In this document: piece by piece, positions 9,145-13,781 of the stretch | Numbering within the stretch: position 1 is the stretch's first letter | Layout: each line of letters opens with the position of its first letter | Assembly (NCBI GenBank): GCA_934655755.1 | Contig: CAKUHA010000003.1 | Span: 62,001-126,000 of the forward strand | Reading direction: 5' to 3' | Length of the DNA: 64,000 nt | Source: an uncultured Collinsella sp. | Lineage (GTDB): Bacteria > Actinomycetota > Coriobacteriia > Coriobacteriales > Coriobacteriaceae | Notes under the pieces: model-generated | Databases searched by the model: none | Told to the model about the DNA's origin: nothing | What the model saw: only the letters and a program-made list of their open reading frames with translations | Made by a program: the position numbers and the translations under genes

Positions 9145-10326
9145 ATGATTGATTACCGCAATCCGTATACGCCCGGTGCTGGTGCGATGCCCAAATACCT
9201 TGCTGGGCGCGATGATATTCTTGAATCAGCTTCTCTTCAGCTTAAGGCCCTTGCAGCAAACTATCAGAGCCGCTCGCTTGTTCTGTACGGTCTTAGGGGC
9301 GTTGGCAAAACGGTATTGCTTAACTCAATCGAATCAATAGCCGAGGGGGAAGGTGTTCTTGTTCGCCATATCGAGGTCGAAGAGAAGAAAGGTCTAATCG
9401 CTCCCTTGGCTTCAGCCTGTTGTACGCTGTCTGCATCGCTTAACAAAATTGAACTCGTTAAGAGTAAATTGGAGCAGATAAAGAATCTATTCACCTCGTT
9501 AACGCTGTCAGTTGATGCGGGGGATGGTTCACTATCTTTGGGCTTTAATGAAGAGGTTCTTGGGGCATCTCTCGCCTCGTCTCATAATTTGTCGGGCGAC
9601 TTTACCGATGTGCTTGTTGTGCTTGGCAAATATGCTCAAGCTACGGGTTCCTCTATTTTTATTGGAATTGACGAGCTGCAGTATGCCAGCAAAGAAGAGC
9701 TTGAGGCCTTGACATGCGCACTTCATCGTGCGACCCAGCTTGGCCTTCCTGTTATGTTTGGCTGTGCTGGACTGCCTAAGCTTCTAAAGATGTTGGGCGA
9801 AGCTAAGACTTATTCCGAGAGACAGTTTAACTATGTGAAGGTTGATTCGCTCCCTCGTGATAAGGCTGTTGAGGCCATTGTCAAACCCGCTCAAAAACTC
9901 GACGTGAGTTATTCGGATGAGGCGGTCGATGCAATCATCGACTATACGGAAGGGTACCCGTATTTCATTCAGGAGCTTTGTTCGACCATTTGGACGTCGT
10001 CCGATAGCAAATGCATCTCGTTGGAGACCGTGCTCAAGTGTACCTCTTCAACGGATGATCGCCTTGACGAGGGCTTCTTTAGCGTTCGATACGATCGATG
10101 CACCCCAAGGCAAAAGGAGTTTTTGATTGCGATGGTTCGCTGTGGCGAGCTTCCTTGTACGATTGCAAATGTGGCTCATTATATGGAGAGTAATGTTTCG
10201 TCTATTGGACCCTTGCGTGCTCAGTTAATTAGCAAAGGCATGATTTATTCTGCCGCAAGGGGGGAAGTCGATTTTACTGTTCCTCAGTTTGATCGTTATC
10301 TGAGGCGAACGGAACAAATCGTCTAG
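9145..10326 (+). CDS. AAA family ATPase with C-terminal winged-helix-like region
   Basis: The 393-residue protein has Walker A GLRGVGKTVLL (residues about 49-59), Walker B SIFIGIDELQ (about 171-180) and a VMFGCAGLPKL sensor-like strand, as in the archaeal-ATPase/Orc1-Cdc6-like group of stand-alone bacterial AAA proteins. The C-terminal 90 residues look like a winged helix. Its cellular role is not known. The N-terminal YRNPYTPGAGAMPKYLAGRDD segment is common to this group. AGGAG precedes ATG 9145. The gene stands alone between terminators, next to a tRNA gene, with an operator-like palindrome upstream. It is more AT-rich than the housekeeping genes, which fits acquisition. Confidence 0.85.
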   Translation: MIDYRNPYTPGAGAMPKYLAGRDDILESASLQLKALAANYQSRSLVLYGLRGVGKTVLLNSIESIAEGEGVLVRHIEVEEKKGLIAPLASACCTLSASLNKIELVKSKLEQIKNLFTSLTLSVDAGDGSLSLGFNEEVLGASLASSHNLSGDFTDVLVVLGKYAQATGSSIFIGIDELQYASKEELEALTCALHRATQLGLPVMFGCAGLPKLLKMLGEAKTYSERQFNYVKVDSLPRDKAVEAIVKPAQKLDVSYSDEAVDAIIDYTEGYPYFIQELCSTIWTSSDSKCISLETVLKCTSSTDDRLDEGFFSVRYDRCTPRQKEFLIAMVRCGELPCTIANVAHYMESNVSSIGPLRAQLISKGMIYSAARGEVDFTVPQFDRYLRRTEQIV

Positions 10327-11616: not shown

Positions 11617-11632
11617 GGATTAGTGTAGCAGA

Positions 11633-11666
11633 TGCTCTTTCAACAGCTTCAGCGCGTGGGCGTAGC
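11633..11666 (-). repeat. Displaced 34-nt copy of the aroQ 3' end
   Basis: This matches 13,293-13,326 (inside aroQ) at 33 of 34 positions, in the same orientation and exactly 1,660 bases away. It lies outside any gene, just beyond the end of the ATPase gene. The two copies bracket the DUF4869/ATPase module. Confidence 0.85.
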
Positions 11667-11697
11667 GCTGGGGCATGAACCGCTTGGAGAGGCGTGG

Positions 11698-12699
11698 TTA
11701 TTCGGCCCTCAGGCACTCTGGCAAAACATTTGCTACTGAGTTCATCGCCTGCGGCTTTAGATACTGCTCATTGAGCTTTGCCTTTTTGTAGGCATAGCGG
11801 GTGTCTGATGAGTATTTGATCAGAACATCGGTGAAGAATCGCTCCCAGCTAAGGTAGTCGCGGCTTTCGATGTAGCTCGACGGGTCCTCGAGGATCTTTG
11901 GGATATCGTTACTGGGAATGAGGCCAGATTGTAGAAGTGTCCACTCGAATGATTCGGGGAGGAACAAACGAACGTTCTTGTAAACGCGCTGTCCGAGCAC
12001 TTTTTCGATGTAGGGACCAAACGCTGCGCCGTCTCCTATGGCAAGGATGTTTTGCTCGGGACATTCGTGAATCGTTCGTTTTAGGTTTGCTACGCCGGTG
12101 GCGGTATAGCAGGGGATTCCCAGTCTGTTGCAAAGGGCGCTGTAGAATTGATAGCCAGACTTGCTATCCTCGACAATTACGGCGTCGGGATTGTCGAACC
12201 CTACGTTGAGGTCCTGGTACAGCATGCTTGTCGTGTGGTTATAAAGCGGCTTGGTTACCGAGTAAAAACGCTTGTCGCTTTTACGGCCGTTAATAACTTT
12301 GCTCGTTGTGTTGACCAGTTTTAGGATCTCGTCGACGCTGTAGGGGAGCTCGTTGGCATCGCGTCGAGATATCAGAACAAAATAGTTGGACGATCCGTTA
12401 ACGGCTTTCGCGAAATCCTTCGAGTAGATAAACTCGTTGCCCTCATCCAAAAAGACAATTGAATCTTCGATAATCGAAAGCTCGCGCTCCCAGCGCCTGC
12501 CGGAAAGTGTTTCGCAAGGTACGTCGCAGCTGAGCGTAACGCCGCTTTCTTGCCCTCGGTCGTTGTAGTCGCGAATCATCGAGATGAGTGTTGTTTTGCC
12601 CGTGCCGCTGTTGCCACGGATGAAGGAAATATTGCGTTTAAAGGTGAGCGTGTACTTTACCTTTGCGCGCTCGACGACAACGGTATGCGTTCCCCTCAT
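11698..12699 (-). CDS. P-loop ATPase with possible TOPRIM-like C-terminal domain
   Basis: The 333 residues fall into two halves. The N-terminal half is a compact P-loop NTPase: Walker A GNSGTGKT at 29-36, Walker B SIVFLDE ending at D85-E86, then NYFVLISRRD. The C-terminal half starts with a hydrophobic strand ending in an acidic residue, DAVIVEDSKSG (E177), and continues with ILAIGDGAAFG (D223). This spacing recalls the E...D pattern of TOPRIM/OLD-type nucleases, but the second motif is not a clean D-x-D, so the domain call is tentative. The start ATG overlaps the upstream DUF4869 stop as ATGA, so translation is probably coupled. No established function is known to me. A defence or stress role is a hypothesis from architecture and context. 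Confidence 0.7.
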   Translation of the reverse strand: MRGTHTVVVERAKVKYTLTFKRNISFIRGNSGTGKTTLISMIRDYNDRGQESGVTLSCDVPCETLSGRRWERELSIIEDSIVFLDEGNEFIYSKDFAKAVNGSSNYFVLISRRDANELPYSVDEILKLVNTTSKVINGRKSDKRFYSVTKPLYNHTTSMLYQDLNVGFDNPDAVIVEDSKSGYQFYSALCNRLGIPCYTATGVANLKRTIHECPEQNILAIGDGAAFGPYIEKVLGQRVYKNVRLFLPESFEWTLLQSGLIPSNDIPKILEDPSSYIESRDYLSWERFFTDVLIKYSSDTRYAYKKAKLNEQYLKPQAMNSVANVLPECLRAE

Positions 12700-13148
12700 T
12701 GCTCATCAACATCCAAGAAGTCATTGGTGGCACCGACGAACTCCTGCATGTTTCTGACGATGCGGCCATCGTTGTCGATGCGAATCTCAAAACGCTTCCA
12801 AGGGAACTTCATGATGTGGTATAGGGTGACCAAGACATCTTGCTCTTTGCCAATTTTGAGCAGCCAGCGGGCGCAGTTGTCTCCGCAAGTGGATGCGTTG
12901 AACACCATGTCTGGGAGATTGCGTACCAGCAGCAGCGTCTTAACGCCGCCGGACAGTTCGAGTGGGGTAATCGACCCCAGTTGCTTGCTTACGATGTTGT
13001 GGGGACCGATCAACTCTGATCCGTCCACGCTTTTAATGATCTGTACGGCCATTGGGTCTTCGAACCACGAGTCCAAGTATGAGTTCCTAAAATAGGTCTC
13101 GGTATCGTAGATGGAACCGGGATAATCTCCCAGATGGATGCTTAGCAT
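12696..13148 (-). CDS. DUF4869-type protein
   Basis: This is a 150-residue soluble protein without signal peptide or membrane segment. The pattern MLSIHLGDYPGSIYDTETYF at the start, LSGGVKTLLL near the middle, then FNASTCGDNCARWLLKI and a closing FEIRIDNDG matches my memory of the DUF4869 family. The two Cys in TCGDNC are conspicuous. ATG 13148 has GGAG upstream and a perfect TATAAT (complement of 13,180-13,185) about 32 nt before it. It is the first gene of a two-gene unit with the P-loop ATPase. Biochemical function is unknown. The pairing suggests that the two proteins form a complex or a regulator/effector pair. Confidence 0.75.
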   Translation of the reverse strand: MLSIHLGDYPGSIYDTETYFRNSYLDSWFEDPMAVQIIKSVDGSELIGPHNIVSKQLGSITPLELSGGVKTLLLVRNLPDMVFNASTCGDNCARWLLKIGKEQDVLVTLYHIMKFPWKRFEIRIDNDGRIVRNMQEFVGATNDFLDVDEQ

Positions 13149-13179
13149 GCGAGTCTCCAGACGTTGTGTGGCTGCAACG

Positions 13180-13185
13180 ATTATA
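13180..13185 (-). promoter_or_regulatory. Candidate -10 (TATAAT) for the DUF4869/ATPase unit
   Basis: A perfect -10 hexamer on the minus strand would give a leader of about 25 nt containing GGAG. No consensus -35; that position falls in the strong hairpin. Confidence 0.5.
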
Positions 13186-13238
13186 AGCCAGTAATAAATT
13201 GCCGGCAGCAGCGAGGTTGCTGCTGCCGGCGCTGGCTT
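13185..13238. terminator. Strong hairpin between aroQ and the DUF4869 gene
   Basis: A perfect 12-bp GC stem (13201-13212 with 13219-13230) has a 6-nt loop. Outside it, a second pairing AAGCCAG (13185-13191) with CTGGCTT (13232-13238) is possible. The U-tract after it is poor on both strands. It probably ends aroQ transcription. Confidence 0.6.
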
Positions 13239-13279
13239 TATTCGCGTGCGAATCGGCGTTGATGAATATGTTCGCGAGG

Positions 13280-13717
13280 CTACTTTTCGAGGTGCTCTTT
13301 CAGCAGCTTCAGCGCGTGGGCGTAGCCTTGGAGGCCTTCGCCGGTGATGGTGGCGAAGCAGGCTAGGCGCGCGTAGCTCACCTGGCGGAAGTCCTCGCGG
13401 GTCTCGACGGCGCTAATGTGGACTTCGATGGCGGGGATGGCGACGGCCTTGAGGGCGTCCAGGATCGCCACGCTCGTGTGCGTGTAGGCTGCCGGGTTGA
13501 TGACGATGCCGTCGACCTTGCCGTAGGCCTCCTGGATCTTGTCAACGATGCTGCCTTCGTGGTTGGACTGGAACACCTCGACCTCGTCAAAGCCCTGGGC
13601 GGCGCCGGCTTCCTTGCAAATCTGGACCAGACGGTCGTAGTTGTCGCTGCCGTAGATGCCCGGCTCGCGAATGCCGAGCATGTTGAGGTTGGGGCCGTTG
13701 ATGACGAGTGCTTTCAT
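13280..13717 (-). CDS. aroQ: 3-dehydroquinate dehydratase, type II
   Basis: This enzyme catalyses the third step of the shikimate pathway, 3-dehydroquinate to 3-dehydroshikimate, in the dodecameric type II form. At 145 residues it has typical length. It shows ALVINGPNLNMLG, the lid-loop region following it (REPGIYG), FQSNHEG, NPAAYTHTSVA and EVHISAVETREDFR, all family blocks carrying the catalytic Tyr, Asn and His residues. ATG 13717 follows AAGGAAG; the longer frame to 13750 runs into the terminator hairpin. It is the last aromatic gene and is separated from aroE-aroK by a terminator, so it may be transcribed independently. Its 3' end is duplicated at 11,633-11,666. Confidence 0.97.
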   Translation of the reverse strand: MKALVINGPNLNMLGIREPGIYGSDNYDRLVQICKEAGAAQGFDEVEVFQSNHEGSIVDKIQEAYGKVDGIVINPAAYTHTSVAILDALKAVAIPAIEVHISAVETREDFRQVSYARLACFATITGEGLQGYAHALKLLKEHLEK

Positions 13718-13739: not shown

Positions 13740-13781
13740 AAAACCACCACAAAGGTGCCTGTCTCCTTTGTGGTGGTTTTT
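13740..13781. terminator. Bidirectional-type terminator between aroE-aroK and aroQ
   Basis: A perfect 16-bp stem (13740-13755 with 13765-13780) carries a 9-nt loop. It starts with AAAA and ends with TTTTT, so it terminates on either strand. On the minus strand it directly follows the aroE-aroK stop codon. Confidence 0.9.

Follow-up and report, generated by a model that had tools for sequence, protein, structure and literature searches.

A possible ABC-type ATP site divided between a DUF4869 protein and an OLD-like ATPase–TOPRIM protein, encoded by an accessory gene pair of Collinsella

What are a DUF4869 gene and a gene for a small P-loop ATPase doing side by side between glf and aroQ? The question is raised by a stretch of 64,000 nucleotides from an uncultured Collinsella sp. 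(GenBank assembly GCA_934655755.1, contig CAKUHA010000003.1, positions 62,001 to 126,000 of the forward strand; hereafter the window, meaning this whole stretch). A sequence-only reading of the window had singled out the two genes as a translationally coupled pair and suggested that they form a new defence or abortive-infection unit. The coordinates of both frames proved to be exact, the ATGA overlap was confirmed and the Pfam matches of the flanking genes (GLF, 4.3e-84, for glf; DHquinase_II, 6.5e-54, for aroQ) agree with the position given for the pair. We advance, as a tentative reading that is nearly as likely to hold as to fail, that the pair is an accessory, two-protein ATPase–nuclease switch resembling OLD, in which an ATP-binding cassette (ABC) ATP site is split over two chains, and that it serves in conflict with mobile elements. 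The features on which the argument turns are as follows, with conservation counted over 55 aligned ATPase sequences.

12696-13148, minus strand: DUF4869 gene, 150 residues; proposed ABC-signature subunit
11698-12699, minus strand: gene for a P-loop ATPase fused to a TOPRIM-like domain, 333 residues
12696-12699, minus strand: ATGA overlap of the DUF4869 stop with the ATPase start
12939-12956, minus strand: LSGGVK, ABC-signature-like motif, DUF4869 codons 65-70, at the start of helix 67-77 of the model
12592-12615, minus strand: Walker A, GNSGTGKT, ATPase residues 29-36; G29, G34 and K35 in 55/55
12442-12447, minus strand: Walker B, D85-E86 of the ATPase; both in 55/55
12166-12171, minus strand: first acidic site of the TOPRIM-like domain, E177-D178; each in 55/55
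12031-12033, minus strand: D223, aligned by profile with the leading Asp of the TOPRIM DxD motif, whose second position is A225 here; Asp in 54/55
11944-11952, minus strand: S250-F251-E252, by motif the S-x-E ligands of OLD metal B; S250 and E252 in 55/55

The first step is to ask whether the two genes belong together. A scan for the ATPase in one genome per species gave at least 193 confirmed stretches, of which the best 80 were used; from the record titles, we take these loci to lie in Actinomycetota, Bacillota, Spirochaetota and one Victivallales bacterium. A DUF4869 frame adjoins the ATPase in 79 of the 80, the sole exception (L061) being a locus in which the ATPase is itself split into two frames. 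In three of the 79 pairs (L032, L076 and L077) the order is reversed; in the rest DUF4869 comes first. For the 77 loci with a DUF4869 score above 140 and an ATPase score above 350, the distance matrices of the two proteins correlate with r = 0.742, the top of 999 permutations being 0.182, and r is 0.602 after leaving out pairs with a DUF4869 distance of 0.35 or less. For both genes, the ratio of nonsynonymous to synonymous substitution rates (dN/dS) falls within 0.03-0.05 when the window is set against its near relatives, and within 0.03-0.08 over the full set of compared pairs. Both genes are under purifying selection, and together they form an obligate unit.

The smaller protein had been called a DUF4869 member, and the match to PF16163 (160 bits against a curated cut-off of 28.9; E = 3.2e-47) leaves this identity firm. 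Searches of Pfam, PADLOC, NCBIfam and the PDB with its sequence returned only its own family and chance matches, and the family is unnamed in the literature searched, the large ABC classification cited by PMC12839542 lying outside that search. The AAA_21 C-terminal half was tried as a template and set aside, as just 17 columns aligned and the profile gives no support. The predicted model, with a predicted local distance difference test score (pLDDT) of 92.9, gives weak matches to ABC and SMC heads in the PDB, nearly all of the 50 best listed folds being ABC-class, and weak matches only in BFVD, the best of these SMC- or ATPase-like. Here and below, fold rankings are among the matches listed. 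The conserved columns of the DUF4869 superfamily (100-102 sequences each) include S66 (97/101), G68 (101/101) and K70 (99/101), together with G89 (101/101), N91 (100/101), F20 (100/100) and D42 (102/102).

The motifs of an ABC ATP site are distributed over the two families in opposite fashion. The ATPase alignment comprises 54 of the 120 listed relatives (1205 found) and the window protein, and the DUF4869 alignment, 40 sequences in all, comprises 39 of the 120 listed relatives (473 found) and the window protein; one sequence, in truth an ATPase relative, was taken out of the ABC set. The LSxG-K pattern is present in 40/40 DUF4869 proteins and in 98 of the 102 members of a wider DUF4869-like set, and in none of the 55 ATPases. 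Walker A is present in all 55 ATPases and is absent from the 40 and from the 102. The Walker motifs had already been read from the window sequence, and their key residues are invariant; the signature-like motif of DUF4869 goes beyond that reading. Before Walker B, ahead of helix 70-76, the ATPase also carries a V-L-x-G stretch (LSG in the window) which may be a decayed signature. If so, the pair would be a heterodimer whose chains have each lost what the other retains, and not a single domain split into two pieces; the ATP site that they share would not differ.

What does the second half of the ATPase contribute? Pfam matches of the whole ATPase are weak ones to P-loop families (best AAA_22, 8.3e-5, below its cut-off), and the 18 families listed for it with E of 10 or less do not include PF20469 (OLD-like_TOPRIM). 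The name 'translation initiation factor 2', attached to two listed relatives, was considered and rejected, since the motifs give it no support. In the model (pLDDT 93.6), residues 170-331 match the C-terminal region of OLD (6nk8) best among the listed folds once receivers and a designed Rossmann fold are set aside. An OLD TOPRIM profile, built on the 14 of 29 loci that have a clear first motif, matches the C-terminal half more strongly than it matches any of 100 shuffles. The part of PMC7049728 available to us gives the six metal ligands of Thermus scotoductus OLD as E377, D381, D431, D433, S478 and E480. Four of these are matched here (by E177, D223, S250 and E252) and two are not (S181 and A225), the register of S250 and E252 being set by motif and not by superposition. 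The fold match, the profile match above shuffles and the four of six ligands support the view that this half is a TOPRIM-like domain of the OLD type, as had been suspected from E177 and D223.

In the mechanism that we propose, the larger protein would provide Walker A, Walker B and a TOPRIM-like nuclease domain, its own signature being absent or degenerate. DUF4869 would be a shortened ABC-like protein without Walker A, giving the signature (LSxG-K) and the D-loop in trans. ATP would first bind to the Walker protein; DUF4869 would then cap it through LSGG and the conserved G-x-N segment; closure would switch the TOPRIM active site on or off; and a phage or plasmid signal would tip the balance between the two states. 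What the analysis observes directly is the pairing, the selection on both genes, their patchy distribution and the opposite motif sets, and it supports the TOPRIM-like fold; the joint ATP site, the nuclease activity, the part played in defence and the trigger are inferred.

How does such an arrangement compare with known systems? In ABC heterodimers with one degenerate site, one chain brings the Walker motifs to an ATP site and the other brings the signature, and both folds are complete. The pair would share this two-chain ATP site, but DUF4869 is without Walker A and its partner without a full signature. A literature search for precedents of a signature acting in trans returned only unrelated matches. 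The likeness to class 1 OLD proteins (P2 Old and T. scotoductus OLD) lies in the order of a P-loop ATPase, of putatively ABC-like fold, followed by a C-terminal TOPRIM domain, and in the four metal ligands. In OLD, however, a single chain contains the entire ABC domain, into which a dimerisation domain is inserted, whereas the ATPase half here has about 155 residues and no space for the insert. In the model about 28 residues separate the Walker A helix from the Walker B strand, so that a complete ABC domain of the OLD kind is not found. The full signature is strict here, yet stands on the separate partner.

PARIS is likewise a two-gene combination of ABC ATPase and TOPRIM, AriA being the ATPase and AriB the TOPRIM nuclease according to the portion of PMC12839542 that we could consult. 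In the present pair the division falls elsewhere, running through the ABC motifs themselves, with TOPRIM on the Walker half except in a distant three-gene form described below; the AriA model matches the ATPase around the P-loop only (residues 12-47, E = 0.041). Gabija also places an ABC ATPase–TOPRIM protein (GajA) within a two-gene unit, but GajB is a UvrD-like helicase and the partner here is DUF4869, which has no PADLOC match. The same portion of PMC12839542, a survey of BREX, presents OLD-ABC in combination with TOPRIM and other nucleases, encoded by one gene or by two; a divided ABC core was not met in it.

The distant relatives extend the picture. In 18 of 20 regions around weak PF16163 matches, taken from genomes of the Schaedlerella family, a small P-loop protein of about 85-160 residues adjoins the DUF4869-like protein; many of these P-loop proteins have DN where the window ATPase has DE. 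In at least 14 of the 20 we recognised by eye a third gene in which the ED, D and S/C-x-E residues typical of the TOPRIM half recur. It precedes the other two in L286, L287, L289, L293, L300 and L303, and follows them, in some cases shortened, in L290, L291, L292, L295, L296, L297, L299 and L301. No convincing Pfam match was found for it in L287, L289, L290, L295, L299 and L300, so the TOPRIM label of the separate gene is our own, from the residue pattern. L284 has its DUF4869-like and P-loop genes inside a type I restriction operon, where they and a DUF4238 gene are flanked by the specificity gene on one side and the HsdR gene on the other. Stated more widely, and with the same degree of reserve as before, DUF4869 may be a free-standing signature subunit in a gut-bacterial radiation of divided ABC ATPases, whose two-key ATP site would gate interchangeable nucleases (TOPRIM fused or separate, possibly DUF4238) against mobile elements. 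One metagenomic chain, P0243 (463 residues, one contig), unites the two halves in full, and in two others the halves are fused with parts missing (P0244 and P0246, one contig each). These fusions may be recent accidents, like the in-frame deletion hybrid of DUF4869 and the middle of the ATPase at L250:1426-2121.

How the pair came to lie at aroQ can be read from its flanks, where the following features are found.

13290-13331, minus strand: aroQ 3' end, replacement copy of a 42-nucleotide direct repeat
11630-11671, minus strand: remnant of the native aroQ 3' end adjoining glf, second repeat copy
13201-13230, minus strand: terminator-like hairpin with a 12-bp stem, between aroQ and the pair
13180-13185, minus strand: TATAAT, possible -10 without a consensus -35

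The direct repeat (90% identity) and the base composition of the locus go beyond the sequence-only reading. Both repeat copies are aroQ 3' ends, and the pair has a G+C content of 51%, lower than that of glf and aroQ (62%) and of aroE (67%). Among 22 close Collinsella regions compared, glf directly follows aroQ with no pair between them in six. In these insert-free genomes aroQ ends like the glf-side copy of the window (GAGCATCTGCTACACTAA or close variants), and the window aroQ that stands beside the pair has a different 3' end from all six. The full pair is at aroQ in three regions, one of which (L154) has the arrangement of the window, including the remnant and glf. Three more (L134, L141 and L151) have DUF4869 without the ATPase, followed by a tail that we read as an ATPase remnant. 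The other ten have aroQ without the pair and, by eye, ABC transporter and glycosyltransferase-like genes instead. The pair at aroQ is thus an accessory insert, and the window retains a remnant of the native aroQ end; the repeat, the insert-free aroQ ends and the G+C contrast show that a foreign aroQ end arrived with the pair. No integrase gene was found within the insert, and recombination would be the simplest route of gain.

The earlier claim that the pair has its own TATAAT holds for the hexamer itself; as a promoter it fares less well, a consensus scan having found no -35 paired with it on the minus strand and a promoter count of 1, not above shuffles (mean 1.5). The RNA fold across 13180-13240, the region of the terminator-like hairpin, has a z of -8.2. 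Five of the 22 regions (L139, L141, L142, L145 and L146) also carry, in the glycan gene cluster close by, a divergent pair whose ATPase shows 39-40% identity; of these, only L141 has DUF4869 at aroQ as well. On the far side of glf lies an AAA_16 ATPase gene (PF13191, 1.8e-9; 9145-10326, plus strand; 48% G+C) which is likely to be accessory too. Between aroE and aroQ there is a perfect 16-bp inverted repeat at 13740-13780; the stretch around it has about 25-38 matches per genome in C. aerofaciens-like genomes and 1-4 in others, where the listed matches are mostly short pieces of the element.

The distribution of the pair is patchy. It was found in 18 of 43 Collinsella genomes (in one as fragments only), in two of the 296 genomes sampled from the phylum (in one of them as a fragment) and in 39 of 200 genomes of the Schaedlerella family (37 of them above the cut-off), where one genome may have as many as 13 hits. 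Two genomes, G334 and G445, have eight and thirteen DUF4869 hits, several of them decayed or distant, an unusual expansion. No Pfam family recurs in more than three of 119 neighbour proteins, and the tally of neighbours points to no linked function. The pair is therefore not a housekeeping set in fixed context, the outcome that would have told against the suggestion of an accessory module. Among 72,556 plasmid records three carry ATPase relatives: a conjugative Ruminococcus albus plasmid, where the relative is beside IS66, a 252-kb Agathobacter rectalis plasmid record with translation genes nearby, and a 900-kb Collinsella record. Such relatives also occur on five of 50,697 phage records, all short, unannotated and faecal. 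A scan of IMG/VR with the ATPase alignment confirmed none, and one with DUF4869 gave a single contig, which also has genes for a phage integrase and a minor capsid protein and in which the ATPase frame has only 201 residues. The unit is accessory and exchanged between genomes.

Several observations weigh against a divided ABC switch with a nuclease and a role in defence, and they are best considered with the explanations that they favour. The ABC reading of DUF4869 rests mostly on the signature block. The P-loop half of the ATPase may be of the ABC or of the AAA+ class: its best Foldseek rows are MutS-type, but 11 of 50 VIA rows are p97/Cdc48, at a Z similar to that of the ABC rows. The split is also not entirely clean, in that [LIV][ST]G occurs at the V-L-x-G stretch in 26/55 ATPases (LSxG in 0/55). 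DUF4869 might accordingly be unrelated to ABC proteins and its LSGG coincidental, the ATPase–TOPRIM protein being self-sufficient and DUF4869 a sensor, adaptor or enzyme that uses its conserved Cys, Asn and His. We regard this as doubtful, though well worth keeping in mind: the best listed folds are nearly all ABC-class, LSxG-K is retained in distant DUF4869 members in which the STCGDNCA segment is partly altered, and a full signature is missing from every one of the 55 partners.

The TOPRIM-like domain, for its part, might be no nuclease and might bind metal or nucleic acid, or merely gate the partner. In all 55 sequences the second Asp of DxD is replaced by Ala (A225), and the position four residues after E177 (S181 in the window) is Ser in 38 and Ala in 17, with no Asp. 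The invariance of E177, D178, S250 and E252, and the near-invariance of D223, would nevertheless fit an altered metal site, and we think a non-nuclease domain rather unlikely.

The orphan DUF4869 genes raise a further objection. Open DUF4869 frames without the ATPase are present in the three Collinsella aroQ regions mentioned above and in three of 29 loci of the Schaedlerella family (L260, L263 and L275), whereas an intact ATPase without DUF4869 was found in 0/80 loci. L141 and L151 share a deletion junction, judged by eye, and give dN/dS of 0.044 at dS of 0.70; the ATPase deletion in the three Collinsella regions seems to be old, and the DUF4869 frame is still under purifying selection. L134 and L151 belong to genomes (G031 and G035, respectively) in which the search found no ATPase relative, the completeness of these genomes not being established. 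The orphans may have a use of their own, for example against incoming effector copies, or may be refreshed by recombination. They are the best evidence for a toxin–antitoxin-like or guarded-effector arrangement, in which a toxic ATPase–TOPRIM protein would be restrained by DUF4869, the LSGG likeness being minor; the position of DUF4869 as first gene in nearly all pairs would also suit it. However, the 80 loci are best matches, a choice that favours intact ATPases, lone ATPases that merely need DUF4869 would decay too, and the conserved LSxG-K block is left unexplained. We consider this arrangement unlikely.

The role in defence was assessed from 119 of 123 immediate neighbours at 64 loci (two of L061, one of L072 and one of L075 were left out) and, as a control, 119 of 162 genes at least 6.5 kb away at 32 of the same loci, chosen at random within size limits. 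Defence-model matches among the neighbours were two for AriA and one each for the GajB, ZorD and methyltransferase models, two GajB models each matching one protein. At E of 1e-10 the neighbours matched 118 PADLOC families and the distant genes 148, a crude comparison that counts families and not proteins. There is thus no measurable clustering with known defence genes; the association with defence islands is not found, and the neighbourhood evidence does not sustain the suggestion of a defence or abortive-infection unit. The portion of PMC10568477 available to us reports that class 1 OLD genes are likewise not proximal to defence genes. In our view the likeliest role of the unit is in conflicts with mobile elements, phages and plasmids among them. 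A housekeeping or envelope-polysaccharide role tied to aroQ, glf or the glycan cluster is very improbable: several Collinsella pairs do lie in or beside a polysaccharide region, but the pair is missing from the same site in six of the 22 close genomes, is rare in the phylum and has no recurrent neighbour family.

If the divided ABC switch is true, it would give a mechanism to DUF4869, a domain of many gut Firmicutes and Collinsella. It would also mean that an ABC ATPase can be divided, its ATP site acting as a two-protein lock, and would add a branch of two- and three-gene forms to the known ABC ATPase–TOPRIM systems.

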